34,786 nt of DNA from Adlercreutzia sp. ZJ473 (GTDB lineage Bacteria; Actinomycetota; Coriobacteriia; Coriobacteriales; Eggerthellaceae). Shown piece after piece: positions 7,757 to 34,786 of the stretch (positions are counted from its first letter, which is position 1; the number at the start of each line of letters is the position of its first letter). The notes beneath the pieces are model-generated. The model worked only from the letters and a program-made list of their open reading frames with translations. It searched no databases and was not told where the DNA came from. The position numbers were made by a program, and so were the translations under genes. Where the stretch lies: contig NZ_JAAVTO010000028.1 of the NCBI RefSeq assembly GCF_013185065.1, positions 1 to 34,786 on the forward strand, written 5' to 3'.

Positions 7757-10402
7757 CTAGTACGGCTCGTCGAGGTCGGCGTGGGCCCGGGCGTCGGCGT
7801 CAAGCCCGAAGAACTTGCCCGCGCGGAAGCGGTCGAGCGCCACGAGCGCGATCATGCCCGCGTTGTCGCCGCACGAGTGCAGAGGCGGCATGACCAGCCG
7901 CACCCGCATCTTCGCGCACAGCTCCTCGTAGGCCGCGCGCAGCACGGGGTTGGCCGCCACGCCGCCGCCGAGGCAGAACGTGCGCGCGCCCGTCTCCTCG
8001 AGCGCCCGCCGCGCCTTCGCCACCTGCACGTCGACGACCGCCTGCTGGAAGCTCGCGCAGACGTCGGGCACGTTGAGAGAGCGCCCGGCTGCGCGCTCTT
8101 GGTTGACGTAGGTGACGACCGCGGTCTTGAGGCCCGAGAGCGAGAAGCGCAGGTCGCCCGAGTGCATCATGGCGCGCGGGAACGCGATGGCGTCCGGGTC
8201 GCCGTCCTTCGCGTAGCGCGAGATCACGGGGCCGCCGGGATATCCCAGCCCGAGCGCCTTCGCCACCTTGTCGAACGCCTCGCCCACCGCGTCGTCGATG
8301 GTGGCGCCGAGCGTGACGTAGTCGCCCCAGCCGCGCATGTGCACGAGCAGGGTGTTGCCGCCCGACACGAGCGACACCACCGCAGGCGGCGCGAAGTCAG
8401 GCGCGCCCACCTTGTTCGCGTAGAGGTGGCCCTCGAGGTGGTGCACGCCGACGAAGGGCACGCCAGCCGCCCACGCCGCGCCCTTCGCGAACGCCACGCC
8501 CACCACGAGCGCGCCCACGAGCCCCGGCGCGTAGGTGACCGCCACGGCGTCGAGGTCGCGCCAGCGCAGGCTGCCCGGCGCGCCGCCGAGGCGGGCGGCC
8601 GCCACGTCGAGGCACTCGTCGCACACGCCGCAGACGGCCTCGATGTGCTTGCGGCTCGCGATCTCGGGCACCACGCCGCCGAAACGCGCATGGAAGTCGA
8701 TCTGCGAGGCCACCACGTCGGAGAGCAGCGCGCCGTCCCCGTTGACGACGGCGGCGGCCGTCTCGTCGCAGGAGGACTCGATGGCGAGGATGAGCGGGCG
8801 GGCGGGCTCGGAAGCCGCGCGCGCGCCTGCGCCTGCGGCGCTTCCGGCCTCCGCGCCTGCGCTGCCCGCGCCCGCGTCCCTGCACGCGGCGTCCCCGTCG
8901 TCGAAGCGCTGCAGCTCCATGCCCGCGACGTCCTTGCGCGCGGCGGGCAGCGCCTCCGCCTTCATGATGAGGGCGTCCTCGCCGTCGGAGTAGTAGCGCG
9001 GGCGCACGCCGAGGCTTTCGTAGCCGAGCGCCGCGTAGAGCGCCTGCGCGCCCGCGTTCGCTGCGCGCACCTCGAGCGAGCTCGTGCGTGCGCCCAAGTT
9101 GCGCGCGTCGGCGGCCACGCGCGCGACGAGCTCGGCGGCGATGCCGCGGCGGCGGTGCTCGGGCGCGGTTCCCACCTTGAGGATCTGCACGTCGCCGTCG
9201 ACCACCCAGCCGCCCGCATAGCCCACGAGCGGCGCGTCAGGCGGAAGCGGCATGGCGGGGTCGGCCGCGAAGGCCGCCCACCACACGCGGTCGGCGCGGC
9301 CCAGCTCGTCGGCCACGAGCGCCTCGCTCCACGCGTCAGACCCCATGATGCGCGCCTCGAGCGCCGCCACGTCAGCCACGTGCGCCGCGTCGAGCGGCTT
9401 GCAGGCGATGCCCTCGCCGTTCGCGCGCGCGTTGGCGATGGCCGTGTCGTTCATGGTGACGTGCTTGCTGCCGCGCGCGCCGGCGAGCGCCTGGTCTGCG
9501 CGCGCGAGACGCGCGCGCTCAGCCTCCTCGGCGTCCGACAGGCGCGTGTACACCGGCAGCGCGAACGCCGGGTCGTGCCGGCGCGCGTCGAGGGGGTCCG
9601 CCTCGCCGGCGCGCCACGCCGCCTGCAGCGCCAGCAGCAGGCCCGCGCCCGTCGGCGTCCACTGGTCCTCGGGCAGCAGCGCGCCGCACGCCGAGAACAG
9701 ATCGGCGTACTTCTTGAGCGCGTCCCCCGTGATGAGCAGCTGGTCTGCAGCGTCGGGAGCCGTTGAGAGTTCGGGGCTGCTCACCAAGCGAGTTCCGCAC
9801 GAGCCGGAAGCGCCGGCGGCGCTTCCGAGCGAGCCAGGACTGTCCGAGCGACTGAGCTGCCCCGGGCCCTCGACGGCGGTGGGAGCGACAGCGCCCTCGA
9901 CGGCGCCCGCGGCAGCGTACTCCTGCGCGCACAGCTCCGCCTTCACCACGCGATCCTCGCCAAGGCGCACCACACCCGCGTCGCTCACGTCGAACTCGAC
10001 CGGGTACACCTCCTTGCGCATGGCGTCAGCCGCCACGAGCAGGTGCCCGCGCACGCCCGCGCCCCACGCGCCCCACGCCACCGCGTCGAGCGTCGAGACG
10101 CCCACGAGGCCCACCTCGAGCGCGCTCGCGATGCCCTTGGCCGTGGCCATGGCGATGCGCACGCCCGTGAACGAGCCCGGGCCGCGCCCCACCGCCACGC
10201 ACGCGATGTCTCCGCGCGCCACGCCCGCGTCCCGAAGCAGCGCGTCGATGCGCGGCAGAAGCTGCGTGTTCGACGCGCGCCGCGCCGCCACCTCGGCAGC
10301 CGCGACGAGCGCGACCGAGCGCGCGGCCGCGTCAAGCGCGCCCACGCCGATGGAGATCACCTCGTTGGCCGTGTCAAACGCCAACACGTATTGTGCCTGC
10401 AC
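7757..10402 (-). CDS. tsaD: TsaB-RimI-TsaD three-domain fusion (tRNA t6A synthesis and ribosomal protein acetylation)
   Basis: An 881-residue single chain joining three proteins usually made separately. Residues 1 to about 310 are TsaB (VLAFDTANEV, GRGPGSFTGVRIAMATAKG). About 335-490 is a GNAT acetyltransferase of the RimI type (VGTAPEHRRRGIAAELVARV, ANAGAQALYAALGYES). About 540-881 is TsaD (LAIESSCDETAAAVV, the metal-binding HLEGH, SGGNTLL, CGDNAGM). TsaB and TsaD form part of the complex that adds threonylcarbamoyl to A37 of ANN-decoding tRNAs; RimI acetylates S18. Linkers are Ala/Gly-rich. TsaB contains an extra low-complexity insert at about 165-230, encoded partly by a palindromic element. 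Start is GTG at 10402 with GGAGG nine bases upstream. TsaE, the partner ATPase, is encoded just upstream on the same strand. Confidence 0.95.
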   Translation of the reverse strand: MQAQYVLAFDTANEVISIGVGALDAAARSVALVAAAEVAARRASNTQLLPRIDALLRDAGVARGDIACVAVGRGPGSFTGVRIAMATAKGIASALEVGLVGVSTLDAVAWGAWGAGVRGHLLVAADAMRKEVYPVEFDVSDAGVVRLGEDRVVKAELCAQEYAAAGAVEGAVAPTAVEGPGQLSRSDSPGSLGSAAGASGSCGTRLVSSPELSTAPDAADQLLITGDALKKYADLFSACGALLPEDQWTPTGAGLLLALQAAWRAGEADPLDARRHDPAFALPVYTRLSDAEEAERARLARADQALAGARGSKHVTMNDTAIANARANGEGIACKPLDAAHVADVAALEARIMGSDAWSEALVADELGRADRVWWAAFAADPAMPLPPDAPLVGYAGGWVVDGDVQILKVGTAPEHRRRGIAAELVARVAADARNLGARTSSLEVRAANAGAQALYAALGYESLGVRPRYYSDGEDALIMKAEALPAARKDVAGMELQRFDDGDAACRDAGAGSAGAEAGSAAGAGARAASEPARPLILAIESSCDETAAAVVNGDGALLSDVVASQIDFHARFGGVVPEIASRKHIEAVCGVCDECLDVAAARLGGAPGSLRWRDLDAVAVTYAPGLVGALVVGVAFAKGAAWAAGVPFVGVHHLEGHLYANKVGAPDFAPPAVVSLVSGGNTLLVHMRGWGDYVTLGATIDDAVGEAFDKVAKALGLGYPGGPVISRYAKDGDPDAIAFPRAMMHSGDLRFSLSGLKTAVVTYVNQERAAGRSLNVPDVCASFQQAVVDVQVAKARRALEETGARTFCLGGGVAANPVLRAAYEELCAKMRVRLVMPPLHSCGDNAGMIALVALDRFRAGKFFGLDADARAHADLDEPY
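9773..9863. repeat. 91-bp palindromic element inside the tsaB coding region
   Basis: Outer arms GGGGCTGCTCA (9773-9783) and TGAGCTGCCCC (9853-9863) match at 10 of 11 positions. The centre holds a perfect 9-bp repeat GGAAGCGCC / GGCGCTTCC with a GGC spacer (9806-9826), and the intervening flanks are partly complementary. It encodes a Ser/Gly/Ala-rich insert absent from ordinary TsaB and looks less like coding sequence than its surroundings. Probably a small inserted palindromic (REP or MITE-like) element kept in frame. Confidence 0.55.
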
Positions 10403-13089: not shown

Positions 13090-13298
13090 CAAACCCCCTC
13101 TTTTCCGCCATCTCAGAAGATCGGTCTATCTTAGATGATAAGCGAGGACAATGCGACGGCAGTATGCCCGTCGGCTCGCCAAACCCCGCGAAGCTCCATG
13201 ATCTCCGACATGCGGCAAGAGCCCCGAACAGCAGAGCGTGAAGGCGAGAGGCGGCAAGGCGCGAGGCCGCCCACCCCTTCCGCGCACACGGCGAAGCC

Positions 13299-14453
13299 TC
13301 AGCCCCGCTCGCATCCCTGCCTGGCAACTGCGGCCATGAGCTTGATGCGATTCACCTGGTTCACGCCGCTCGTGCCTGGGTCGAACTCCACGGTGGCTAT
13401 GTTCGCGCCCGAGCCGTAACGGCGAAGGCGGCGCAGGACCCCGCGCCCGACCACGTGCCCCGAAAGGCAGCCGAACACGCTCGCGTAGACGATGTCGGTG
13501 ACGCCCTCGTCGACGAGAATGCTCATCCAACCCGCAAAAGACCAGCCCAGGCCATGGGTGAGCAGCTCGGGAACGAAGCGCAGCCCCGCGCTTCTCACCC
13601 GCTCGTAGGTTACGGCGTGCGGAATGACGCGCAGCCCCTCGCTCGCGCACGCACACAGGCCATCCACCTCCTCGAGGAACGTCCCCTCTGCGCCTTGGGC
13701 GTGCAGGGCATAGCTTACCAGGCCTGACAGGTACGGAGCCACCACTTCGCAGCCCTCCTCCTCGAGCACCTGAAGCAAGCCCCCGTTGACGGACGGGCAG
13801 AACAGCGCCGCCGCCGTCCCCGCAACGCCGACGCGCGGCTTGGAGAGGCGGGCCGTCGGCAGAAGCCGCGCCGCCTCGTCGTCGAGACTGCGCATGAAGC
13901 TCCTCGCGTCGAACGGCTCTCCCGAACGCAGCATCTCCAAAACCCTGCCGCGCCAGCTCTCGGAAAGCGCGTCGAAATAGGGCACCTGCGGCCCCTCCAA
14001 GTGGGGGCGCATGCGCAGCCGAAGCTGAAGCAGCAGGTCACCCGCCATGAGGGCATGCGCAAGGCAGCGCTGCTCAGCAGAGGAGGCGCCGCGGAGGAAC
14101 TCGTTGAAGTCATGCAGCGTGACCCCTGCTAACCCCGCTTCGCGCAAGCCGCGCTCCACGAAGAAGGGGATGTCCTTGCAGCGGCATCCCGGGCACAGCA
14201 TCGGCACGCACACGTCAGCCGACTCGCCGGGGATGCCCGCGCCCGCTTGCGCCTGCACGGCGCGATGAGCCTGCGCCACGGCCACGACAGCCGTGAAGCA
14301 CGCGTCGTTGTTCACCAGCGACAGTCCCCGGCGAATCGCATCAGCGTCCACCTCCGTCGGAAAATGCGCACCCAAGCCGGCGCCTTGCGCCGCCGCAGAG
14401 AGGAACCCCCCGTGCCAATCGGACGGAAGGGGAATGATCAGGCGCTCTCTCAT
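13299..14453 (-). CDS. 2-hydroxyacyl-CoA dehydratase (HgdB)-like protein, detached C-terminal part of a giant activase
   Basis: A 384-residue protein matching the C-terminal third of the large activase/DUF2229 fusion proteins: VNNDACFTAVVAV, then a cysteine-rich stretch CVPMLCPGCRCKDIPFF where the family usually has QTGGGCRATNY, then FGCLSGHVVGRGVLRRLRR and EFDPGTSGVNQVNRIKLM at the end. The conserved cysteines suggest an iron-sulfur cluster like those of HgdB or the double-cubane protein. Its ATG overlaps the TGA of the upstream activase (ATGA), so translation is coupled. Reaction unknown; the partner activase would feed it electrons with ATP hydrolysis. The 206 bases to folD hold no gene. 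Confidence 0.85.
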   Translation of the reverse strand: MRERLIIPLPSDWHGGFLSAAAQGAGLGAHFPTEVDADAIRRGLSLVNNDACFTAVVAVAQAHRAVQAQAGAGIPGESADVCVPMLCPGCRCKDIPFFVERGLREAGLAGVTLHDFNEFLRGASSAEQRCLAHALMAGDLLLQLRLRMRPHLEGPQVPYFDALSESWRGRVLEMLRSGEPFDARSFMRSLDDEAARLLPTARLSKPRVGVAGTAAALFCPSVNGGLLQVLEEEGCEVVAPYLSGLVSYALHAQGAEGTFLEEVDGLCACASEGLRVIPHAVTYERVRSAGLRFVPELLTHGLGWSFAGWMSILVDEGVTDIVYASVFGCLSGHVVGRGVLRRLRRYGSGANIATVEFDPGTSGVNQVNRIKLMAAVARQGCERG

Positions 14454-17400
14454 CGAAGACCCCTTGCTCTCTCGCCTGCCATGCCGCCCCGCAGCTCACG
14501 CGTCCTGAGGCCGATGATGCCCGCCTGTGCCGCCGCCAGCGACCTTATGCGAATGCGCACCGCCGCAAGATCGCACATCTCGTCGATCTTGAGCATCGTC
14601 ATCATCTTCCCGGACGCCCGCAGGACGTCCCTCACCTTGTCAGACGCCGCGGCATCCAAGCCGCAGCCGAACGAGCACAGCTCAACCAGCTCGAGCTCGT
14701 CGTGACGCGCGACGAGCTGCGCCGCCGCCAGCAGCCGGTCAGGATACTCCCACAAGCGCTCCCCCGCGCCAGGCGCCTGCCGGGCACCGAGGCAGTCGTC
14801 AGTCAGCACCGCGTACCCGCACGATCGCAAGAGCCCCGGAATGCCATGGTGAACCGCCGGGTCAACGTGATAGGGACGGCCCGCCAGCACAATGCCGCGC
14901 GCGCCTGACGCGGCGATCTGCTCCAAGGCGCGCGCGCCCTCCGCCCGCAGGGCGCGCCTGAAAGCGCTCTGCGCGGCACGTCCTGCCCGTACCGCCACGT
15001 CGACCTCAGCACGCGTGACGTCAGGCCACGCCGACGCAAGCGACGCGCGAACGACTTCTGCGAGCGCTGCGGCCGCATCCGGGAAATCATCCCGCGCGTC
15101 CCCCAGCAGACACGCGACCTGCGGCATGACGAAGCGGACCTTCTGCCGATCCGCCGTGCTCACGTTCTCCGCGAGCACGAGGCCGTAGCCCGCCGCCACC
15201 GGGCAGGCAGACCTCGGCATGCTCACGCCGTCCACAAGGGGCAGAAAGACGGTGTCCACCCCGCGGTCGATCAGGTCGAGCAGCTGACCGTGGGCGAGCT
15301 TCGCCGGATAGCACACCGACTCAGACGGTATAGTCTCCAAAGCCCGGCCTCGCAGCTCGCCGCAAGACAGCACGACGCGGAACCCAAGCGCCGACAGGAG
15401 CGCATGCCAGAACGGATACGTCTCGTACATGTCGAGGGCGCGCACCACGCCGATCTCCCCGCGTCGCGCGTCGCTCAGCTCAAGCGAGGGACGATCGAAC
15501 AGGGCGTGATAGCGCCAGTCGAACAGATCAGGTAGCGTCCTCGTGCTCGACGCCCCCGCACGCATCCCCCCAGGATGCGCTTGCTCGCCCGCACCACGCT
15601 CGCAGCGGTTTCCCACCGTGAAGGTTCGCCTCTCCCCCGCATCAGAGAACGTCGTGACCATGAGCGTGCAGGCGTTTGGGCAGCGACGGCACGTCACCGT
15701 CTTTCCAGCGCAGGAAAGCCCCCTCATGCGCTCGCGCGAAAGCAGCGCCGACGTCGACTGGCCGCGCCCGCGCTCCCGCGCGATGAGCGCAGCGCCGTAT
15801 GCCCCCATGTAGGCGGCGATGTCCGGTCGGTGCACCGTGCGACCGCATACGCGCTCGAAGGCCCGCAGCACTGCGTCGTTGGAGAACGTCCCGCCCTGCA
15901 CCACGATGCTCTCGCCCAAGGCGGACGCGTCGCGTACGCGCATGACCTTCTCGAGCGCGTTTCTCACCACGGAGTACGCGAGCCCTGCCGATATGTCCCC
16001 CGTGCTCGCGCCTTCCTTCTGCGCATGCCGCACGCGCGAGGTCATGAACACCGTGCAACGCGTCCCCAGGTCAACGGGGTTCTCAGCCGTAAGCGCCGCG
16101 TTGACGAAGCGATCGAGCCGCACGTTCATCGACCACGCCATCCCCGAGAGCAGCGCCCCGCATCCGCTCGAGCACGCCTCGTTCAAGACCACGTCGTCAA
16201 CCGCCCCGTCGCGCAGGTAGACGCACTTGATGTCCTGACCGCCGATGTCCAAGATGAAGTCCACGTCAGGAACAAGCTCGAGTGCCGCGCGCACATGGGA
16301 GACCGTCTCCACCTCGCCCGAGTCGAACGAGAACGCCTGCTTGAGGTATCCCTCGCCATATCCCGTGACGCAAGCGTGCGCGATAGTGATAGCCGGGTTG
16401 CCGTCATGCAGGCGCGGAAGGCGCTTCCGCAGGTCGGACAGCATGTCACGCGCCACTTCCATGAGATTTCCCGCCGAACGCTCGTACCCGGTGCGCAAGA
16501 TGCGACCGTCCTCGGAGACCAGCGCGTACTTGATCGCCTCCGACCCCGAGTCCACGCCCAGAAAAGCGCGCCCCTCATAGCTTGCCAGGCCAGCGCGAGG
16601 TGCGCGGCAGCGCGCATGCTCGTCTGCGAAACGGCGATGCTCGTCACGCGAGGCGAACAGGGGCTCGAGGCGCGAGAGGGTGGCGCCGTCATCCCAGGAA
16701 ACGCCCTCCAGCTGATCCAGCAGCTGCGCCAGCGTGCAGGACGATTCGCCGCGAGCCTCGAAAGCAGCTCCTTGGGCGACGAACAGGTGTCCTTCGGCGG
16801 GCACCAGCATGTCCTCGTCGGAAAGCCCCAGGCGCTCCTTGAACCGCCCGCGCAAGTACGATAGGAAATGAAGCGGCCCGCCGAGCAGGGCGACCTTGCC
16901 CGTGATGGGCCGCCCGCATGCCAGCCCGGCTATGCACTGGACAGACACCGCGTCGAAGACCGAGCCGGCGATGTCCTCGCGCGAGACGCCCTCGTTCAAC
17001 AAGGGCCTCACGTCCATCTGCGCAAACACCGCGCACCGCGAGGCGATGGGGTGGATGGTGGCGCATCCGTGCGCCAGGTGGTTGAGCTTCTCGGCGTTGA
17101 CGTCCAGCATGCCCGCTATGGTGTCGATGAAGCCGCCTGTGCCTCCTGCGCACGTGCTGTTCATGCGCAGCTCCTCGCCGTCGGACAGAAAGAGGATCTT
17201 GGAGTCCTCCCCGCCGATCTCAATGGCAACGTCGGCTTCAGGGATGAGGCGCTCAAGCGCCCGGCGGCAGGCGACGACCTCCTGCGTGAACGGAAGGCCC
17301 AGCGCGCCCGCCAGCTGCATGCCCGCCGAGCCGGTGACGCCCACCGCGAACAGCTCGCTCGGGTAGCGTCGCATGGCGTTGCGCACCACGTAGGAGAGCG

Positions 17401-17551
17401 TCTCCCTCACGTTGGAGAGGTGTCGATCGTAGCTTGAGTACAACAGTTCTCCATCATCGTCTTGTACGACGATCTTGATGGTCTTCGACCCGATGTCGAT
17501 GCCCATGCGAAGCGGCGTTGCGCCGGAGCCCTCCTTGCTTGAGACGCCCAT
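14450..17551 (-). CDS. CoA-enzyme activase with two BcrAD/BadFG (HgdC-like) ATPase domains and a DUF2229 region
   Basis: About 1033 residues. Two ASKHA-fold ATPase domains in tandem: the first opens with MGIDIGSKTIKIVV, the second with FLGVDSGSEAIKYALV. Each keeps both cysteines that hold the bridging [4Fe-4S] cluster in HgdC (MNSTCAGGTGGF and ASRCAVFAQMD; NEACSSGCGALL and GTRCTVFMTSR). A cysteine knot CRRCPNACTL follows, then DUF2229-like sequence from VVRALDMYETYPFWHALLSA, and an HgdB-like part ending in SFGCGLDAAASDKVRDVL. Such proteins use ATP to deliver very low-potential electrons. ATG 17551 is chosen because AGGGA precedes it and it clears the upstream stop. Lies downstream of a molybdenum enzyme and ferredoxin; normally fused to the next gene product. 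Confidence 0.88.
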   Translation of the reverse strand: MGVSSKEGSGATPLRMGIDIGSKTIKIVVQDDDGELLYSSYDRHLSNVRETLSYVVRNAMRRYPSELFAVGVTGSAGMQLAGALGLPFTQEVVACRRALERLIPEADVAIEIGGEDSKILFLSDGEELRMNSTCAGGTGGFIDTIAGMLDVNAEKLNHLAHGCATIHPIASRCAVFAQMDVRPLLNEGVSREDIAGSVFDAVSVQCIAGLACGRPITGKVALLGGPLHFLSYLRGRFKERLGLSDEDMLVPAEGHLFVAQGAAFEARGESSCTLAQLLDQLEGVSWDDGATLSRLEPLFASRDEHRRFADEHARCRAPRAGLASYEGRAFLGVDSGSEAIKYALVSEDGRILRTGYERSAGNLMEVARDMLSDLRKRLPRLHDGNPAITIAHACVTGYGEGYLKQAFSFDSGEVETVSHVRAALELVPDVDFILDIGGQDIKCVYLRDGAVDDVVLNEACSSGCGALLSGMAWSMNVRLDRFVNAALTAENPVDLGTRCTVFMTSRVRHAQKEGASTGDISAGLAYSVVRNALEKVMRVRDASALGESIVVQGGTFSNDAVLRAFERVCGRTVHRPDIAAYMGAYGAALIARERGRGQSTSALLSRERMRGLSCAGKTVTCRRCPNACTLMVTTFSDAGERRTFTVGNRCERGAGEQAHPGGMRAGASSTRTLPDLFDWRYHALFDRPSLELSDARRGEIGVVRALDMYETYPFWHALLSALGFRVVLSCGELRGRALETIPSESVCYPAKLAHGQLLDLIDRGVDTVFLPLVDGVSMPRSACPVAAGYGLVLAENVSTADRQKVRFVMPQVACLLGDARDDFPDAAAALAEVVRASLASAWPDVTRAEVDVAVRAGRAAQSAFRRALRAEGARALEQIAASGARGIVLAGRPYHVDPAVHHGIPGLLRSCGYAVLTDDCLGARQAPGAGERLWEYPDRLLAAAQLVARHDELELVELCSFGCGLDAAASDKVRDVLRASGKMMTMLKIDEMCDLAAVRIRIRSLAAAQAGIIGLRTRELRGGMAGERARGLR

Positions 17552-17556
17552 GGAAC

Positions 17557-17832
17557 TTATCCCTGCTCCCAAGGGTAGACAGGCCGCGGCGTCTGATTCG
17601 CCTCACGACGCTTTTTTGCCGCCGCCGCAAGCGCGATGATCTGCTCGTGCTCAACCTTCTTCTTCGCGAGGTAGGCCTGCTTGGCACGGGAGCGCATCAC
17701 GTCGGTGATGGGCTCGCCGCAGTTCGGACAAGCGTCATCGAGCAGGTTGATGTCGCCGCCGCATGCGGCGCACGTCGAGCGCTTGTCGTAGCACTTCCCG
17801 CAACGGGAGCAGTCGGTGCAGGAAAACGTCAT
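17557..17832 (-). CDS. Small four-CxxC (zinc-ribbon-like) protein
   Basis: A 91-residue protein with four CxxC pairs (C5/C8, C11/C14, C21/C24, C35/C38) in its first 38 residues, enough for two zinc ribbons or small iron-sulfur sites, followed by a Lys/Ala-rich helix and a PVYPWEQG end. AGGAGGG lies a few bases before the ATG. It is immediately downstream of a strong hairpin and its stop precedes the activase ATG by five bases, so it is probably made with the activase. Role unknown; a metal or redox accessory of the activase is a guess from position only. Confidence 0.78.
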   Translation of the reverse strand: MTFSCTDCSRCGKCYDKRSTCAACGGDINLLDDACPNCGEPITDVMRSRAKQAYLAKKKVEHEQIIALAAAAKKRREANQTPRPVYPWEQG

Positions 17833-17853
17833 GGCACTTCCCTCCTAGCGAAA

Positions 17854-17884
17854 GGCGGACCGGGGCTTCACGCCCCGGCCCGCC
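17854..17884 (-). terminator. Strong intra-cluster hairpin (terminator or attenuator)
   Basis: GGCGG-A-CCGGGGC, loop TTCAC, GCCCCGG-C-CCGCC: 12 paired positions with one internal mismatch, followed on the minus strand by TTTCGC. It lies between the ferredoxin stop (17915) and the start of the next gene (17832), just 22 bases before it. It would end most transcripts of the molybdenum-enzyme operon and let a fraction continue into the activase genes. Confidence 0.65.
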
Positions 17885-17914
17885 AAGCTCAACTCAAAGC
17901 CTCAGACGCCAAAC

Positions 17915-18247
17915 CTAGCGATATACCGCCAAGTGGCCCTCAGTCTCATCTGCCAGCTTGTTGATCTCGTCAAGCTCGCCAACATGCAGCGCATGGGAGA
18001 TGCAGATGGCGGCGCAGGGAGCGTTGCCTTCCTCCTTCTCCAGGCAGTACGCGCACTTGTCGAGGCGGTACGGATACGGCGACATGAACATCTCGTGACG
18101 GCCGTCAACCACATCGGGCTTCCCGAGGAACACGCGCATGTACGTGTCGGTCACAGGCAGGTCGTAGTAGTTCTGGCACGCCAGCTGGCACGCCGAGCAC
18201 CCCACGCAGTAGTCAAGCTCTACGAGCACTCCAATTTTCTTTGCCAT
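17915..18247 (-). CDS. Two-cluster [4Fe-4S] ferredoxin partner of the molybdenum enzyme
   Basis: A 110-residue electron carrier resembling a shortened DmsB/HybA-type subunit. First cysteine set C14-x2-C17-x2-C20-x3-C24 (CVGCSACQLAC), second C65-x2-C68-x9-C78-x3-C82. The four further cysteines of full DmsB subunits are missing. No signal peptide or membrane segment, so cytosolic. GAAGGG lies seven bases before ATG 18247. It follows the molybdopterin enzyme gene by 46 bases. In known Eggerthellaceae catechol dehydroxylase clusters of the cytosolic type, the catalytic gene is accompanied by just such a small ferredoxin and an MFS carrier. Confidence 0.9.
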   Translation of the reverse strand: MAKKIGVLVELDYCVGCSACQLACQNYYDLPVTDTYMRVFLGKPDVVDGRHEMFMSPYPYRLDKCAYCLEKEEGNAPCAAICISHALHVGELDEINKLADETEGHLAVYR

Positions 18248-18293
18248 GATCAATCCCTTCGTTACTCACTCGCGTCAGATTCAGCGAATCAAA

Positions 18294-20732
18294 TTAAAAC
18301 TCGTTCACCTTGGAAACCTTGCACAGCATGCTGCGCATGGGCGCAGCGCCGAAGCCCGGGTCAGATCCTTCCGCAGTGCACAGAACGTTGGGGTTGGCCT
18401 GATCCCAGCTGAAGCCAGGAAGGTTGAGCTCCTCGCAGGCGTGCTTGTAGTTCGGGCGGCACATGGAAGCTGCGCCCTTGATGACGCCCTTGGAGATGCG
18501 GGCCTTCGCGCGGATCTTGCCGCGGCGGGTCTCGACCCACAGCCACTCGCCCTCGGAGATCTGGCGCTCGCGCGCGTCCTCGTCATTGAGCTCGACGTAA
18601 GGCCAGGGCTCCAAGATGCGCTGGTGCGCGATGTTGGTCCATGCGGAGTGGTAGAACGCGTAGTCGCGCGCGCCGGTGGTCAGACACAGGTCAAACTCCT
18701 TGTACACCTCTGGCGTCTGATACGGGCTCTCAAACGGCTCGCTGTAGCTCGGCAGCGGGGAGTTGTAGCCGTACGAGGGCATCTGCTCGGAGTACACCTC
18801 GATGCGGCCCGTCGGCGTCTGGAACTTGACCAGGCCCTTCTCATGCTGCCTGGTGGTGCGGTTCTCACCGCCGTACTCGATGAAGTAGCCGATCTCGGCG
18901 GCCTTCTCGTAGTCGGTGATGGGCTCCTTGCCGTTGGGGATCAGGTGGAACTCGTTCAGGCGCCACAGCTGCATCTCCTCGGAGCTCTCCCATGGCCACA
19001 GGTCGGGAGCGAAGCGCTTGCCCAGCTCGCGCTGGAAGTCCCAGTCGTCGCGCGCCTCACCAGGAGGAAGCACGGCCTTCTGCGGGATGATGAACGGGCA
19101 GGGCTCGGGGTAGAGCTCCTCGTCGAACACGCCGACGCGCTCAGACCAGTGGGCAGCCGGCAGGACGATGTCGGCGATCTCGTTGCCCGGGGTCATGAAG
19201 TAGTCCATGTCGACGTTCAGCTCCAGAACGTCGCCCGTGAGCGCCTTGTGGATCTTCTGCGAGTCCTCGAAGCAGCCCAGCGGGTCGTTCGCAACCGAGA
19301 TCATGACCTTGGCCGGCCACGGCTCGCCCGTGATCATGGACTCCCATACGTCGTTGGGGATGTTGGCGTTGCCGTAGACCTGCGTGTACATGGGATGCTT
19401 GTCGTAGCCCAGGCGCAGCTTCGGGGGAACGCGGTCGTACGCGGTGATCTTCGGGTCGAGCATGAACTCCCAGAAGGTGTTGAAGTAGATGCCGCCCTTG
19501 TCGTCCAGCGGCGGGTTGAGCAGCAGCTGGAGGATGGTGATGGCGCGGCCGGACTGCAGCGCGTTGGAGGTCATCATGCAGGCGCCCAGGTAGGCGGTCA
19601 GAAGCGACGGCTTGTCGTCGGCAGGGTTGGTGATGATGTCGAACATCTGCAGGATCTTCTCGACCGGGGTCCAGGTGACGGAGGACACCTTCTCGGGCGT
19701 CCACACGGCGATCTCGTCCTTGTAGGTCTCGAGGCCGGTCTTGCAGGTCATCTTCGAGCCGTCCTTGAGCGTCACCTCGAAGGCGCCCATGAGCGCAGGG
19801 CGCACGTCCTCGCGGTTGAAGCTCTCGGTCTCGGGATGCCAGATGGCGATGTCGTTCGCGTTCTCATCCCACACCACGTAGCGCTCGTCAGAGCCGTCCT
19901 CGGAAAGCTCGGCCTCACGCAGCATCATACGAGCGTCGGCGTTGATGAGGAACGGGGCGTTGGTCCACTTGATGAGCATCTCGTGAGCACGCTCGAACTT
20001 GCCGCTCGTGAACATGAGGTTGGCAAGGCCCATGGCCAGCGCGCCGTCGGTGCCGGGGCGAACCGGGACCCACAGGTCGGCCTTCGCGCCGATGTCGCGG
20101 AACACCGGGTCCACCACCACGACGTGGGCGCCGTTGCGCTTGGCGTCCATGATGCGCAGGCCGGAGTACTGGCGCGAGCGGATGGGGTTGGTGCCCCACA
20201 TGACGATGGAGCCGGCGTTGCGATAGTCGCACGCCTCGTGGGGATGGAACATGCGACCCCAGGTCACATGCGTCTGAGCCAAGTTGGGGAGCAGGCAGAC
20301 ATGGGTCGGCCACACCTTGCCGCCGCCGTTCCAGGAGTTGTTCAGGCGGTCGAGGAAGTGGTTGGAGCCACGGCCGGTGCCCTGGGAGATGATGACGGAC
20401 TGCGGGCCGTACTCGTCGATGACCTTGCGCACCTTCGCCTCGATGAGGTCGATGGCCTCGTCCCACGTGATGCGCTCCCACTCGTCCTTGCCGCGGTTCT
20501 CGGTGTGAGGCTCGTCGACCGACCAGGTCTTGCGCTTCATGGGGTACTTCAGGCGATCGGGATGGGCGTGGATCTCGGGAGCCGAGAACGCCTTCACGCA
20601 CAGGATGCCGTCGTTGACCGGGCAGTCCGGATCGCCCTCAACGCGCGTGATCTCGTTGTTGTCATTCACGGTGAGAATGACGCCGCACTTCGAATGGCAA
20701 TCGAAGCACACGGTACGTACTTTCTTCTCCAT
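18294..20732 (-). CDS. Cytosolic molybdopterin oxidoreductase, acetylene-hydratase / catechol-dehydroxylase-like
   Basis: An 812-residue bis-MGD (DMSO reductase family) catalytic subunit. The N-terminal [4Fe-4S] site is C9-x2-C12-x3-C16 ... C45, at nearly the same positions as in acetylene hydratase. C146 in THVCLLP is the likely Mo/W ligand (compare Cys141 there). There is no Tat signal, so it acts in the cytosol. Acetylene hydratase has an aspartate after the second cluster cysteine (Asp13); here it is H13, so that reaction is unlikely. The set of enzyme, small ferredoxin downstream and MFS carrier upstream matches the cytosolic catechol dehydroxylase clusters (Hcdh, Cadh, Dodh type) of gut Eggerthella and Gordonibacter. 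The substrate cannot be read from sequence; a reductive dehydroxylation or transhydroxylation of a phenolic compound is inferred. GAGAGGA precedes ATG. Confidence 0.88.
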   Translation of the reverse strand: MEKKVRTVCFDCHSKCGVILTVNDNNEITRVEGDPDCPVNDGILCVKAFSAPEIHAHPDRLKYPMKRKTWSVDEPHTENRGKDEWERITWDEAIDLIEAKVRKVIDEYGPQSVIISQGTGRGSNHFLDRLNNSWNGGGKVWPTHVCLLPNLAQTHVTWGRMFHPHEACDYRNAGSIVMWGTNPIRSRQYSGLRIMDAKRNGAHVVVVDPVFRDIGAKADLWVPVRPGTDGALAMGLANLMFTSGKFERAHEMLIKWTNAPFLINADARMMLREAELSEDGSDERYVVWDENANDIAIWHPETESFNREDVRPALMGAFEVTLKDGSKMTCKTGLETYKDEIAVWTPEKVSSVTWTPVEKILQMFDIITNPADDKPSLLTAYLGACMMTSNALQSGRAITILQLLLNPPLDDKGGIYFNTFWEFMLDPKITAYDRVPPKLRLGYDKHPMYTQVYGNANIPNDVWESMITGEPWPAKVMISVANDPLGCFEDSQKIHKALTGDVLELNVDMDYFMTPGNEIADIVLPAAHWSERVGVFDEELYPEPCPFIIPQKAVLPPGEARDDWDFQRELGKRFAPDLWPWESSEEMQLWRLNEFHLIPNGKEPITDYEKAAEIGYFIEYGGENRTTRQHEKGLVKFQTPTGRIEVYSEQMPSYGYNSPLPSYSEPFESPYQTPEVYKEFDLCLTTGARDYAFYHSAWTNIAHQRILEPWPYVELNDEDARERQISEGEWLWVETRRGKIRAKARISKGVIKGAASMCRPNYKHACEELNLPGFSWDQANPNVLCTAEGSDPGFGAAPMRSMLCKVSKVNEF

Positions 20733-20759
20733 TGCTGTCCTCTCTTCTCTCTATTGGAC

Positions 20760-20834
20760 CCTGCGTGCCTCCTGCGCACGCAGGTAGTTCCCCCTGCTGC
20801 GAACGCGCTCCCCAACGAGCCCCTCGGGGAGCGC
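20760..20834 (-). promoter_or_regulatory. Two tandem hairpins in the leader of the molybdenum enzyme gene
   Basis: CCTGCGTGC / GCACGCAGG (20760-20784, 9 bp, loop 7) and GCGCTCCCC / GGGGAGCGC (20805-20834, 9 bp, loop 12) fill the 153-base gap between the MFS stop and the next start. Neither has a T-run. They could end or process the MFS transcript, or stabilise the downstream mRNA. Confidence 0.5.
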
Positions 20835-20885
20835 CGCGCACATGCGCCAGCGTGCCGCCAGCGCCTTTGCCTCCAAGACGCCTCG

Positions 20886-22229
20886 CTAGAACGTCTTGTC
20901 CTTGGTCTCAGGGCCGAACAGGAACACCAGCAGGCCGGGGATGATGACCATGGCGGCTGCGATGTACATGGTGGTGTACACGCCGAAGCTGGTCATGACG
21001 CCCGCCAGGATGATGGGTCCCAAGATGGAGCCCATGCGGCCCCAGGACGTCGCCAGGCCGTTGCCCGTAGTGCGAATGTTGGTCTCGTACAACTCTGGCG
21101 TGTACAGAGCCATCATCATGGCGTTGAGGTACTTGCCGAACTGATACAGGATGCCCGTGATGATCAGCATGACCAACGTGGTGGACGCACCGTAGGCGAT
21201 GCCGAAGATCGACGTGCACAAACCGGCGATGAGGAACGTCTTCTTGCGCCCGAGCTTCTTGGCAGACCATGTTGCGAAGAACCATGCCGGGATGCCGCCC
21301 AGGATGCCGATGGTCACGAACCCAGTGGACTGGACGACGTCGAAGCCCTTCTCCATGAGGATGGTGGTGAGCCACGTAGTCAGGCCGTAGTCGCTGAACA
21401 TGCTGATGAACCACACGAAGAAGCACAGAACGGTGACCCTCAGGTACTTCGGGCTGAACAGGTCCTTGAACGACGCCTTCTTATCGGTGCGCTCGATGCG
21501 AACCGGCTCGGGCAGCTCCTTGTGGCGGGCGATGGCCTCCTGCTCGAACTTCGTGCAGATGGCATCAGCCTCGTCGTATCGCCCCTTCGCCTCAAGCCAC
21601 AGGGGCGACTCGGGGCACGTCTTGATGATGCCGATGATGAACAGCGCCGGGAGCGCCTCAGCCAGGTACACGCCGCGCCAGTCGAAGTGCGGCAGGATGA
21701 GCACGGTGAGCACTCCGGCCACCGCGAAACCGATGGGCGTCATGAGCTGGTAGAGCGTCATGTACTTCGGACGCTCGGCACCCGAGACGATCTCGGAGAG
21801 ATAGCTGAGGGCCACGGGGAACTGCCCGCCCAAGCCAACGCCCAATATGAAGCGCATGGTGAACAGGTAGTAGATGTTGGGCGAGAACACCAGGGCGAAC
21901 CCGGCAATACCCCAGAGGAGCATGGCACCGACGATGGTCTTCTTGCGGCCGATGCGGTCAGCGATGCGGCCGGCGCCGATGGCACCGATGAACATGCCCA
22001 AGAAGCAGATTGACGAGTAGTAGCCGCCCGTTGTGGCATCCATTTCGAAGTATTCGCGAATGGTCGGCATCAAGAAGCTCGTTCCGCCCAGGTCGATGGT
22101 TTCGGCAAACCACCCCATGAGCACGAAGAAGATGATGACGACCGTATGCGGAGACGTCGGGATGCGGTTCATTCGATCTGCGATTGTGTACTCAGGCTTA
22201 GCCTGAGCTGCACCAGAAGCGTTTGGCAT
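20886..22229 (-). CDS. MFS transporter (sugar/aromatic-acid symporter type)
   Basis: A 447-residue twelve-helix carrier. It has the loop 2-3 motif GRIADRIGRKKT, helix 4-5 RFILGVGLGGQFPVALSYLSE, PESPLWLEAKGR after helix 6, the large central loop, and a second-half ATWSAKKLGRKKT, as in metabolite:H+ symporters including those for aromatic acids. Start ATG 22229 with AAGGGGGT upstream; the frame continues 36 codons further without family sequence. A hairpin (GCCTTTC / GAAAGGC, 22252-22270) lies just before the ribosome site. It precedes the molybdenum enzyme gene on the same strand and would import its substrate or export the product. Confidence 0.9.
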   Translation of the reverse strand: MPNASGAAQAKPEYTIADRMNRIPTSPHTVVIIFFVLMGWFAETIDLGGTSFLMPTIREYFEMDATTGGYYSSICFLGMFIGAIGAGRIADRIGRKKTIVGAMLLWGIAGFALVFSPNIYYLFTMRFILGVGLGGQFPVALSYLSEIVSGAERPKYMTLYQLMTPIGFAVAGVLTVLILPHFDWRGVYLAEALPALFIIGIIKTCPESPLWLEAKGRYDEADAICTKFEQEAIARHKELPEPVRIERTDKKASFKDLFSPKYLRVTVLCFFVWFISMFSDYGLTTWLTTILMEKGFDVVQSTGFVTIGILGGIPAWFFATWSAKKLGRKKTFLIAGLCTSIFGIAYGASTTLVMLIITGILYQFGKYLNAMMMALYTPELYETNIRTTGNGLATSWGRMGSILGPIILAGVMTSFGVYTTMYIAAAMVIIPGLLVFLFGPETKDKTF

Positions 22230-22251
22230 TTCAACCCCCTTAAGAATGTGA

Positions 22252-22270
22252 GCCTTTCCCCCTGAAAGGC
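22252..22270 (-). promoter_or_regulatory. Leader hairpin of the MFS gene
   Basis: Perfect 7-bp repeat GCCTTTC / GAAAGGC with a 5-base loop, ending about ten bases before the MFS ribosome site. Could modulate translation or mRNA decay. The rest of 22230-22493 shows no gene and no confident promoter. Confidence 0.35.
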
Positions 22271-22444
22271 ATGCCTGAACAAATGGTGGGCTGCCTGCAT
22301 CCAGGCGTGTTCCCCCTCTCGCTCTAGCCCCCTTCAAACGCTCTAGGAAAACCTTACGATGGGCAAGGCGGGCAGGTCGATCAGCAGGATGTTTAAGCGC
22401 TTCAACAGACCGTAGTGATGACAGCTTGAGCTGGTGCTTTGCAA

Positions 22445-22475
22445 GCTCTTACACGTGCTGGAGCACGCGAAGAGC
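22445..22475 (-). terminator. Two-part hairpin after the LysR gene
   Basis: Outer 6-bp stem GCTCTT / AAGAGC and inner 6-bp stem CGTGCT / AGCACG, separated by a small internal loop, 19 bases past the LysR stop codon. A short TTGC follows on the minus strand; probable but not strong terminator. Confidence 0.45.
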
Positions 22476-22493
22476 CCAGCGCGAGGCGCGGCC

Positions 22494-23471
22494 TTACCGC
22501 CCTTGCGCAAGTTCAAACGTGCCCGCGAAGCGACCACGCTCGGCGCCTTCGCGCACGCGCTTCTTCATGAACGAGATGACCTCTTGGACGCGCGGCGACT
22601 CCCCGTCGACACGCGGCACCAACACGCCGAACTCCGTGCTGAAGAACCCCCGCGTGGGAACGGTTCTGATGCGGTCAGGCAAGACGCCCACACCCTCGAT
22701 GAGCTTGGGGGCGAAGCTTATGAACTGGTTCTCCATGATGCGCGCGTAGATGACGGGCGTGGCGTTCGTCACCGTCTTGACGCACTCCTCCCGTATGTAG
22801 TCATCGAGCGCGTCGCCGAGCACCGTGTCCTGGTAACGCGCCACCGAGCAGCCGTCGACGTCGCCTGGCACGATCTCAGACTTGCCAGCCAGAGGGGAGT
22901 AGGCTGACACGAGGGCGACGAGCGGCGACGTGAACAGCGCCTCGTACTCCATGTCGCTCTCCTCCATCAGCTTTTGCACGAACCCCCAGTACTTCTCGAT
23001 GGCGGGTATCGAGATGAACCCGAAGGAATCCTCGCCGCCGCGAGCGACGATATGGGGAACCACACGGTAAACGTTCGACTCCTTGAACTTGACGTTGAAC
23101 GGGAACTGCCCCGGCTTCTGGATGTCGAGGAACGTGGCGACGTACTGCGACACGCACGGCGTCACCGTAACCCTGACCGTTTCATGGCGCGCACCTCCCC
23201 CGATCTCCGCGAGACGGTATCCGGCGAGCGTCCCCTTGACGCGCTCCAGCGCGTCAATGACGCCGTCAACCTGCCGGCTCAACTCGCGTCCCGCCGGCGT
23301 GAGCGATATGACGTTGTTCCGATACGAGGTGAGCGTCACGCCGAAGTCCTTCTCGAGCTGGTGAATCGCCCGGCTGACGCCTTGGGGCGTCATATAGAAG
23401 TTTGTCGCGGTCTTGGAAATGGAAAGTGTCTCGGAAAAATCCTTGAAGTAGTACAGATACTCAACATGCAT
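22494..23471 (-). CDS. LysR-type transcriptional regulator
   Basis: A 325-residue regulator. The N-terminal winged helix-turn-helix reads LSISKTATNFYMTPQGVSRA, then IHQLEKDFGVTL and ISLTPAGREL, the standard LysR pattern. The remainder is the two-lobed effector-binding domain, beginning near VRVTVTPCVSQYVATF. GGGGGGA is close to ATG 23471. Most LysR genes face their target; this one is on the same strand as the MFS and molybdenum-enzyme genes that follow. It likely senses a small-molecule substrate of that cluster or of the OFA-type carrier on the other side; which one cannot be told from sequence. Confidence 0.92.
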   Translation of the reverse strand: MHVEYLYYFKDFSETLSISKTATNFYMTPQGVSRAIHQLEKDFGVTLTSYRNNVISLTPAGRELSRQVDGVIDALERVKGTLAGYRLAEIGGGARHETVRVTVTPCVSQYVATFLDIQKPGQFPFNVKFKESNVYRVVPHIVARGGEDSFGFISIPAIEKYWGFVQKLMEESDMEYEALFTSPLVALVSAYSPLAGKSEIVPGDVDGCSVARYQDTVLGDALDDYIREECVKTVTNATPVIYARIMENQFISFAPKLIEGVGVLPDRIRTVPTRGFFSTEFGVLVPRVDGESPRVQEVISFMKKRVREGAERGRFAGTFELAQGR

Positions 23472-23575
23472 GATTCCCCCCTGGTCCAAGATGGATCCGT
23501 GCCTTGAATCACCCTTCGATGCCGTCTTCAACCCCTCAAGTCTGCCTGCCCCCACGTCACCGAACGCACGACAAT

Positions 23576-23603
23576 GCCGCTTGGCGTTGAAACGCCAAGC
23601 GGC
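23576..23603 (-). terminator. Perfect 13-bp hairpin after the 70-residue CxxC protein gene
   Basis: GCCGCTTGGCGTT / AACGCCAAGCGGC with a 2-base spacer, the cleanest hairpin of the window, 52 bases past the stop at 23656 and 104 bases before the LysR start. On the minus strand ATTGTCGTGCGTT follows. Separates the small gene from lysR. Confidence 0.65.
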
Positions 23604-23655
23604 CCATGCATAGAGCGTCCGCCTTGCGGCCGCCACCCTGGTATGTTGCCTCCCC

Positions 23656-23868
23656 CTATGCTTTGGGAGCCGAAGGCGGCTGCGGGCCCTTCGGGGCACC
23701 AGGCATGGCAGGAGCTGGGGCTCCGGGCGAGGCCGGAGCGCCTGCCTCGGGAAGCGGCGCCTTGCAGAACGGGCAGACGACGGGGCGGAAATTGGGCGAC
23801 ACGATCTTCTTGCCGCACTCGGGACAGATAAGCGGGCCCGACGTCGTATCAGGTGGTCTGAAACACAT
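23656..23868 (-). CDS. Small zinc-ribbon protein with Pro/Ala-rich tail
   Basis: A 70-residue protein. Residues 15-35 form one zinc ribbon (C15PEC18 and C32PFC35); residues 38-70 are almost only Pro, Ala, Gly and Ser and likely disordered. GGAGGAGA stands four bases before the ATG. It has a promoter (23948-23976) and a strong terminator of its own, so it is a single-gene unit between the LysR and OFA-type MFS genes. I do not recognise a named family. It is the second small CxxC protein of this region but shares no other similarity with the one at 17557. Confidence 0.75.
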   Translation of the reverse strand: MCFRPPDTTSGPLICPECGKKIVSPNFRPVVCPFCKAPLPEAGAPASPGAPAPAMPGAPKGPQPPSAPKA

Positions 23869-23947
23869 ACGATCTCCTCCTTCATGAAGCCGTTACACAG
23901 CAAGCCGAAGCAGCGCCTCCGTTCGCTGCGCCGTTTACGGTAGCCCC

Positions 23948-23976
23948 ATGTTACGAACCGCCTCTCCCCTACACAA
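23948..23976 (-). promoter_or_regulatory. Promoter of the small zinc-ribbon gene
   Basis: Minus strand TTGTGT (23976-23971), 17-base spacer, TAACAT (23953-23948). It would give a leader of about 70 bases. The divergent MFS gene has only a weak candidate (TTGAAA at 24010-24015). Confidence 0.42.
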
Positions 23977-24080
23977 CGAACTAACGGTAGGGGTGCGCGC
24001 AACCAATCGTTGAAAGCGCTCGAAAACGTTTGCCGATAGCCTGGTAATGCCAAAGAAAGATGCCGTTGAGGGGGTTCGCC

Positions 24081-25352
24081 ATGGCTGAAAACGCTGATCT
24101 GAAAGTAGCACAGATAAGACGGAAGAGGGTCGCTTATCTGGCCGTGTCCACCGTCTCGCTTCTCTTCCTCGGCCTCATATACGCGTTCTCCCTATTCTCC
24201 GCGCCCATGTGCGCCACGTTCGAACTCGAGAAGAACGACGTGAGCCTCACGTTCAACATCATGATGATGGCGTTTTGCGTGGGCGCCGTCATCGGCTCGC
24301 AAATCGAGAAGGTCGTCGGGGTCAGGGGCTCCATCATATGCGCGGGGATCATGTTTCTCGTGGGGTTCGCCGGAACGGGGCTCTTCGGCTACGGCAGCAT
24401 CATGGCGGTCTACCTGCTCTACGGCGTATGCGGCGGCATGGGCGTGGGCATCGGGTACAACTCCATCATCGCCACCACCAACGTGTGGTTTCCCGACAAG
24501 GTGGGCTTCTCATCCGGCGTGCTCATGATGGGGTTCGGCGTCTCCGCGCTGCTCGTCGGCAACCTGTCCCTGAGCTTCGTCGCATCAGCGGGGCTCACCC
24601 CCGTGCTCATAGCGCTCGGCATAGCGACGTTCGCGGTTGCGTTAGCCTGCGCATTCATACTCAAACGTCCGCCGGAGAACATCATAGAGATCATGACGGG
24701 CAAGGAAGCCGTCACCACTGGCGACGACCCCGCTGACAACGACAAGCCCCTCTCCACTCCTTCGTTCTATGTGTACTGGATCTGGGCCATCATCGTCATC
24801 GCCATCGGCCTTGCCACCATCGGAAGCTGCGCGTCTGACGCTCAGCTGGTCGGCCTCGACACGGCGTTCGCCACCATGCTCGTAGGGGTCGTCTCCACGG
24901 CGAACGGCCTGGCACGCATCGTCATGGGCGTCGTGTACGACAAGACCAACGTCAAGGTCACCATGGCCGTCAACGCCGGCGTGGCCGTCATCGCCGCAGG
25001 CGGCATCTTCGTCGCGTTCGCCACTGGCATGGGCGTCTTCTACGTGATCGGAGCGGTGTGCTGCGGCTTCTGCTACGGCACCGTCCCTGTCGCCACCTCG
25101 GCGTTCTCCCGCCAACGCTTTGGCTCGAAGAACTACCCGCTCAACCTTTCCATCGCGAACCTCGCCATCTTGTTCGGCTCGCTCCTCAACATCGCCGTGC
25201 AGGCGGCCGTCGGCGGCGCCGAGAACCGCCTGGGCGTATTTGCAGCACTGCTCGCACTGTCCGCCATCGCACTCGCCGACGTCATCCCCTTCTCCAAGAT
25301 GTGGAACCGCGACATGAAGCGACTCGATGAGGCAAGGACGCAGGCGAACTGA
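24081..25352 (+). CDS. OFA-type MFS transporter (oxalate:formate antiporter family)
   Basis: A 423-residue twelve-helix carrier. The N-terminal helix FLGLIYAFSLFSAPM with the Tyr-Ala-x-Ser pattern, LTFNIMMMAFCVGAVIGS, GVCGGMGVGIGYNSIIAT followed by WFPDKVGFSSGVLMMGFG, and the second-half LARIVMGVVYDK and GFCYGTVPVATSAF are typical of the OFA group. These move small carboxylates or related organic anions. GAGGGGG stands seven bases before ATG 24081. It is the only plus-strand gene of the island and ends seven bases from the fchA stop (convergent). Substrate unknown; an aromatic or organic acid used by the adjoining redox genes is plausible. Confidence 0.87.
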   Translation: MAENADLKVAQIRRKRVAYLAVSTVSLLFLGLIYAFSLFSAPMCATFELEKNDVSLTFNIMMMAFCVGAVIGSQIEKVVGVRGSIICAGIMFLVGFAGTGLFGYGSIMAVYLLYGVCGGMGVGIGYNSIIATTNVWFPDKVGFSSGVLMMGFGVSALLVGNLSLSFVASAGLTPVLIALGIATFAVALACAFILKRPPENIIEIMTGKEAVTTGDDPADNDKPLSTPSFYVYWIWAIIVIAIGLATIGSCASDAQLVGLDTAFATMLVGVVSTANGLARIVMGVVYDKTNVKVTMAVNAGVAVIAAGGIFVAFATGMGVFYVIGAVCCGFCYGTVPVATSAFSRQRFGSKNYPLNLSIANLAILFGSLLNIAVQAAVGGAENRLGVFAALLALSAIALADVIPFSKMWNRDMKRLDEARTQAN

Positions 25353-25359
25353 GCGACGC

Positions 25360-34641: not shown

Positions 34642-34645
34642 GGCG

Positions 34646-34786
34646 CTACTCGTCCCCGCGCTTGTCCACGCCGTACGGGTTCGCATACGGGTTCGCGTAC
34701 GGGCTCGCACCCGCTGCCGGCGCCTGCGCGCCCGGCGCGGAGCCCGCCGCCGCGTCGCCGCCGCTCGCAGCGCCGCCCGCGCCCGC
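34646..34786 (-). CDS. C-terminal end of an upstream gene (possibly FtsH)
   Basis: The last 46 codons of a frame that enters from the right edge and stops four bases before the folP start. It is Gly/Ala/Pro-rich and ends SPYANPYANPYGVDKRGDE, with a 12-bp DNA repeat behind the ANPY units. Such disordered tails end actinobacterial FtsH proteases, and ftsH often precedes folP, so FtsH is a guess from gene order. No catalytic sequence is in view. Confidence 0.55.
   Translation of the reverse strand, partial: AGAGGAASGGDAAAGSAPGAQAPAAGASPYANPYANPYGVDKRGDE

Follow-up and report, generated by a model that had tools for sequence, protein, structure and literature searches.

A LysR-type regulator, an MFS carrier, a molybdenum (Mo) enzyme, a ferredoxin (Fd), a small CxxC protein, a double HgdC-type activase and an HgdB-like protein, arranged as LysR-MFS-Mo-Fd-CxxC-Act-HgdB and here called the cassette, are shown by genome comparison to form a single co-inherited, horizontally mobile unit of gut Coriobacteriia. 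The set was analysed in the window, that is, the whole stretch of 34,786 nucleotides from Adlercreutzia sp. ZJ473, a single contig of a genome of 2.63 Mb. The adjacency of the molybdenum and activase genes is not due to chance. The components are of known kinds, the new elements being their obligate mobile pairing and a split HgdB-like protein with four cysteines. It is proposed, tentatively, that the cassette would act as one inducible reductive system, in which the activase may feed or reactivate the ferredoxin and the molybdenum enzyme with ATP-driven electrons.

The preliminary description of this DNA had listed seven elements on one strand, from the carrier to the HgdB-like protein, and all of them were confirmed in position and order, on the minus strand (Table 1). 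Beyond that description, the LysR gene was found to be part of the set, and the set to sit in an insertion with an extra, divergent MFS gene.

Table 1. Features of the cassette and its surroundings in the window
Feature	Coordinates	Strand	Support or remark
LysR-type regulator, 325 aa, heads the conserved set	22494..23471	-	HTH_1 1.8e-11; LysR_substrate 2.1e-7
MFS importer/exporter, aromatic-acid/H+ symporter-like, 447 aa	20886..22229	-	MFS_1 5e-53
Mo bis-MGD enzyme, DMSO reductase family, 812 aa	18294..20732	-	Fe-S motif C9/C12/C16/C45; C146 = aligned Mo-ligating Cys
Eight-Cys (two-cluster) ferredoxin-like electron-transfer subunit, 110 aa	17915..18247	-	DmsB-type match 2e-10; invariant Cys
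Strong intercistronic stem-loop without T-tract	17854..17884	-	13-bp stem, z -3.2
Small four-CxxC protein, 91 aa, weakly double-zinc-ribbon-like	17557..17832	-	
Double HgdC-type activase (two ASKHA ATPase domains) + fused DUF2229 of HadBC/DCCP fold, 1033 aa	14450..17551	-	
HgdB-like protein, 384 aa, C-terminal domain split off from the fused activase family	13299..14453	-	four Cys invariant within clade
Divergent MFS transporter, oxalate/formate antiporter-like, looser companion inside the insertion	24078..25352	+	
Insertion of 12.3 kb with the entire set, between folD and fchA	13090..25358	.	

The LysR gene was found in every cassette whose contig extends far enough. The carrier matches TIGR00895 at 5e-65, yet under the cut-off of that model, and its identity across the closer cassettes is 87-89%. 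In the cassettes, the frames for the CxxC protein, the activase and the HgdB-like protein either overlap or are separated by a few bases, as would be expected of a translationally coupled operon; the start of the HgdB-like frame overlaps the activase stop by 4 nt in the window, and the overlap of these two frames ranges from 4 to about 20 nt among cassettes. Rfam and tRNA scans over the window gave no matches.

Molybdenum enzymes with 81-90% identity occur in seven of the 138 genomes of the family (the window genome, G055, G056, G065, G067, G068 and G126), and activases with more than 59% identity are present in those same seven only, on the same contig and directly downstream of the molybdenum genes. 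Genomes with the cassette include those of Ellagibacter isourolithinifaciens DSM 104140, Gordonibacter sp. 28C and Gordonibacter sp. Marseille-P2775. When 84,980 species were scanned, two deeper cassettes came to light, UBA948 (molybdenum enzyme 70% identical) and Md513_bin86 (66%), both with the activase, the contig of the latter, which is that of G397 from another family of the order, stopping within this gene. Thus, the activase is adjacent in all the close molybdenum-enzyme relatives found (66-90% identity; nine loci, six genera, at least two families). The preliminary description had named, as a finding that would speak against it, the two gene groups being unlinked in all relatives; this is refuted by an adjacency kept in every close relative found. 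The two nearest molybdenum-enzyme homologues beyond the clade (55-60% identity; Gordonibacter sp. 28C NODE_3 and RUG12647) have no adjoining activase.

The phylogenies point to one origin. In a molybdenum-enzyme tree of 39 sequences the cassette enzymes group together as a single clade (SH-aLRT 100), and in an activase tree of 38 sequences the split activases do likewise (support 99). UBA948 and Md513_bin86 are the first branches in both trees; they disagree slightly on where the window falls with respect to G126 and Ellagibacter. Linkage in all close relatives, one clade for each partner and joint insertion indicate that the two gene groups are one inherited unit.

This joint insertion is evident from a sister species, G028, in which the site is empty: the gap between folD and fchA (the latter identified by an FTCD_C match, 1e-62) measures 42 bp, versus 12.27 kb in the window. 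The inserted DNA contains the seven cassette genes and the divergent MFS gene, and its GC content is 0.64 versus 0.70 in the flanks. In Gordonibacter sp. 28C the cassette and the formate-tetrahydrofolate ligase gene are widely separated (G067:C1, 80 kb versus 499 kb). An integrase, a tRNA and clear end repeats were looked for at the insertion and none was seen, and no CoA ligase, transferase or thioesterase is encoded among its genes. The divergent MFS gene is found beside the cassette in relatives too, but in varying position and with 37-64% identity.

Purifying selection acts on all the genes of the set. In pairs with unsaturated synonymous changes, dN/dS values were 0-0.04 (ferredoxin), 0.03-0.09 (molybdenum enzyme), 0.03-0.11 (carrier), 0.11-0.17 (activase) and 0.29-0.37 (HgdB-like protein). 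The latter is by far the fastest-evolving conserved member, whereas the molybdenum enzyme and the carrier are nearly frozen. Taking into account that an enzyme working on the same substrate would be expected to match the constraint on the carrier and the molybdenum enzyme, and that the HgdB-like protein does not, this contrast favours an accessory redox role for it, as an argument rather than a proof.

The molybdenum enzyme has acetylene hydratase (2e7z) as its best PDB match (1.6e-57), which upholds its preliminary label of acetylene-hydratase-like. All cassette enzymes keep C9, C12, C16 and C45, together with C146 at the position of the Mo-ligating cysteine of 2e7z, so that both the Fe-S and the Mo-ligating cysteines align. 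Differences from acetylene hydratase include the length (about 812 versus 727 residues), the ferredoxin partner, the reductive context and position 13, where all cassette enzymes have His in place of the catalytic Asp13 of acetylene hydratase. The N-terminus, MEKKVRTVC, has no twin-Arg (TAT) signal, and the ferredoxin and MFS genes adjoin. The window genome contains 39 matches of varying strength to this enzyme, the best after the enzyme itself being 36% identical, so that it is a specialised representative of a large local set. Sister molybdenum enzymes (55-60% identical) lacking an activase but accompanied by a ferredoxin and other transporters (G067:C23:168869-171250 and G121:C73:2952-5348) offer a naturally occurring control for what the activase does.

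The Gordonibacter-type cytosolic catechol dehydroxylases (Dodh, Cldh, Eadh1-3, Gs Vadh) share with the cassette a soluble, TAT-less molybdenum enzyme, a small 4Fe-4S partner and an MFS transporter, and a LysR regulator has been described at the Gs Vadh locus (PMC7028382, PMC11887054, PMC12771579). Their catalytic subunits do not have the N-terminal Fe-S motif (PMC11574389), in contrast with the cassette enzyme, which keeps the four cysteines and is accompanied by an ATP-driven activase. An Eadh candidate of Ellagibacter, picked by its Amidohydro_2, ferredoxin and MFS neighbours, has Ala at the position of C9 and is about 33-36% identical to the cassette enzyme; in the tree it lies beyond the well-supported branches, as a long-branched sole reference identified from its neighbourhood only. 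Thus, of the resemblance to catechol dehydroxylase clusters noted earlier, the gene layout stands and the enzyme subclass does not: judging by its sequence, the cassette enzyme is probably on a different branch, despite the similar layout. The cassette was also considered as the ellagic-acid cluster, an assignment rejected on finding that Ellagibacter has a separate Mo/Fd/Amidohydro_2 cluster (L170). For Gs Vadh (C1878_02750, LysR-linked), the locus-tag order weakly suggests a place in the genome other than that of the cassette.

The ferredoxin has eight invariant cysteines (C14, C17, C20, C24, C65, C68, C78 and C82). Within the family, full-length homologues of the CxxC protein are confined to the seven cassettes and to RUG12647 (G121/L052), where the gene adjoins those for the molybdenum enzyme and ferredoxin, the activase being absent. 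Since it also accompanies a molybdenum homologue lacking the activase, the CxxC protein belongs with the molybdenum enzyme and the ferredoxin. The stem-loop between the ferredoxin and CxxC genes folds at -44 kcal/mol. Strong stem-loops are formed by every Fd-CxxC gap examined, including that of RUG12647 without activase, although their sequences are unrelated, and MFS-Mo gaps contain strong stem-loops as well. An intrinsic terminator was considered and rejected: the T-tract is absent in the window, and for this reason the structure is unlisted by the terminator scan. It looks like an intercistronic element that tunes or stabilises the mRNA of the genes before it, and not like a terminator dividing unrelated operons.

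The activase contains BcrAD_BadFG and DUF2229 domains and matches HgdC-type activators, in which two cysteines per ATPase domain hold a shared [4Fe-4S] cluster. C460 and C499 align with the cysteine positions of 4eht, their domain 1 equivalents are C134 and C173, and all four are invariant. The predicted structure of the DUF2229 part (pLDDT 79) has the HadBC/BzdNO/DCCP fold, with Z 14.9 to 3o3m, well above the other structures compared. For the HgdB-like protein there was no Pfam match, and protein and profile searches of PDB sequences gave nothing credible, so that structure comparison was needed; its predicted structure (pLDDT 88) resembles those of DCCP, HadBC and BzdNO, with Z 12.4 (VIA) to 6eno. 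Both parts have an invariant cysteine triad, C148, C184 and C364 in DUF2229 (numbering of the aligned segment) and C52, C90 and C329 in the HgdB-like protein. In the latter, every Mo-linked member has a fourth invariant cysteine, C87 (C-x2-C-R), which the aligned fused homologues all lack. In 2-hydroxyacyl-CoA dehydratases the catalytic cluster has three cysteines and an open site, and the relay cluster is bound by an additional, fourth thiol (PMC11574389); thus, a fourth protein cysteine would suit a relay, and C87 may be a cluster ligand by analogy.

The preliminary description had grouped the CxxC protein, the activase and the HgdB-like protein as an ATP-dependent electron system, which fits the latter two, given an HgdC-type activase and a fold shared with DCCP, HadBC and BzdNO, but not the CxxC protein, which groups with the molybdenum enzyme. 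Nor is the HgdB-like protein a classical HgdB, as it corresponds to the detached C-terminus of a fused DUF2229 activase family. In nearly all other genomes of the family the activase and HgdB-like parts are one polypeptide of about 1500 aa, with whose C-terminus the 384-aa protein aligns, and the split is restricted to the Mo-linked clade. The two versions share domain order and full-length homology (37-52% identity over the activase part); the cassette version differs in being split into 1033 and 384 aa, in its linkage to a molybdenum enzyme, in the extra Cys87 and in an altered DUF2229 loop. The idea that fused activases generally adjoin molybdenum enzymes was rejected, no such rule appearing in 20 neighbourhoods. 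The near-universal fused activase (L133-L146) often has a TetR-like regulator gene alongside (cluster c1, 8 of 20 loci). At two other loci, L147 (Ellagibacter C3) and L149 (G057 C4), large fused activases adjoin a membrane LuxR-type regulator, which suggests that these could be substrate-inducible activases without any molybdenum enzyme.

In the proposed mechanism, LysR would sense a small substrate, probably a phenolic or other aromatic compound, which the MFS carrier would bring in and the molybdenum enzyme, with its Cys-ligated bis-MGD molybdenum, its own Fe-S cluster and its two-cluster ferredoxin partner, would reduce. In the double activase, a [4Fe-4S] cluster would sit between the two fused ATPase domains, and ATP hydrolysis would send single low-potential electrons through the DUF2229 clusters and those of the HgdB-like protein to the ferredoxin and the molybdenum enzyme, either continuously, for a substrate that is hard to reduce, or occasionally, for the rescue of an over-oxidised molybdenum centre. 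The CxxC protein would be a small metal-binding helper to the Mo/ferredoxin pair. The wider claim, that a DMSO-reductase-family enzyme may be powered or reactivated through dedicated archerase-type ATP-driven electron transfer, as a mobile gut-bacterial cassette, is made a little more cautiously still.

The main alternative is a two-step pathway, in which the molybdenum enzyme and its ferredoxin perform one conversion and the DUF2229/HgdB-like unit, driven by the activase, catalyses another, ATP-dependent one, as a reductase or dehydratase of the product or a precursor. The DUF2229 and HgdB-like parts do share their fold and three-cysteine sites with the catalytic HadBC, BzdNO and DCCP, and the nearest molybdenum homologues manage without an activase. 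Moreover, stand-alone large activases are widespread (132 of the 138 genomes), two of them lying beside a LuxR-type regulator, so that large DUF2229 activases may be reductases in their own right. Against this, the insertion has no CoA-activating gene, the HgdB-like protein evolves much faster than the nearly frozen molybdenum enzyme and carrier, and the clade-specific fourth cysteine would close the open cluster site. Because of these three points an ATP-driven electron supply to the molybdenum enzyme is preferred, with no more than moderate confidence, and the two-step pathway is judged possible but doubtful. The gain of C87 is counted for the preferred reading since it would be expected of a fully protein-bound cluster relaying electrons, and so is the invariance of all the cysteines needed for the activase cluster and the two HadBC-like sites. 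The constant linkage of the two groups, the single clade of each, their joint insertion and the touching or overlapping frames are counted for it as well. Counted against it are the activase-free nearest homologues, the stand-alone large activases and the characterised catechol dehydroxylases, which run on dithionite/methyl viologen with no activase (PMC12771579). A domain fusion or a Mo-specific contact linking the two groups was not found.

It could also be argued that the activase system does not feed catalysis, and instead helps the Mo-ferredoxin pair to have its molybdenum cofactor or an Fe-S cluster assembled, inserted or repaired. Loose sequence conservation and a clade-specific association would suit such a helper, and an ATP-driven complex with complex Fe-S clusters activates methyl-coenzyme M reductase, although via unrelated proteins (PMC12176620); nevertheless, the many related molybdenum enzymes of the same genomes (the 39 matches in the window genome) have no neighbouring activase and no scaffold-like component was found, which makes this explanation unlikely. 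More improbable still is that the two groups merely travel together, sharing an insertion and perhaps a regulator but having unrelated jobs. The stem-loop does stand between them, and the divergent MFS gene shows that the insertion can hold something that acts like a loose passenger; however, order and adjacency are fixed over six genera, both trees point to one origin and every gene is under purifying selection.

With respect to other ATP-driven systems, the cassette shares with 2-hydroxyacyl-CoA dehydratases, ATP-dependent benzoyl-CoA reductases and the double-cubane cluster protein the ATPase domains with cysteine pairs and the HadBC/BzdNO/DCCP-fold domains with three-cysteine sites. It differs from them in having two ATPase domains and one reductase domain per chain, linkage to a molybdenum enzyme, a fourth cysteine in the HgdB-like protein and no CoA-activating gene. 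Likewise, the HgdC-type activase (archerase) is a separate homodimeric protein, whereas here two ATPase domains and DUF2229 form one chain of 1033 aa. The activation complex of methyl-coenzyme M reductase is a precedent for ATP-driven, low-potential activation of a metalloenzyme (PMC12176620), but it involves other proteins, a nickel F430 target and archaea, and is an analogy only. In the literature found on catechol dehydroxylases there is no mention of a link to an activase (PMC7028382, PMC11887054, PMC12771579), and papers found on DUF2229 describe none either. The view that a connection between a molybdenum enzyme and an ATP-driven activase was undescribed agrees with our search, focused mostly outside the subscription literature, in which no paper linking a DMSO-reductase-family enzyme to an archerase-type activase was found.

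Molybdenum reductases of gut Eggerthellaceae determine what becomes of drugs, hormones and polyphenols, and the literature found gives no settled electron source for the soluble ones. That one such enzyme comes with an ATP-driven electron pump suggests either a reaction beyond the reach of ordinary donors or a means of reactivation. Taking into account that Gordonibacter sp. 28C and Ellagibacter isourolithinifaciens carry the cassette, and that Gordonibacter urolithinfaciens has served for heterologous expression (PMC11887054, PMC12771579), the question can be put to a direct test.

Two further genes of the window encode fused proteins. An 881-aa frame at 7757-10402 joins a GNAT acetyltransferase to TsaD, with an N-terminus that is TsaB-like by eye, as in a TsaB-RimI-TsaD-type fusion, and a single frame at 33328-34710 fuses dihydropteroate synthase and HPPK domains.
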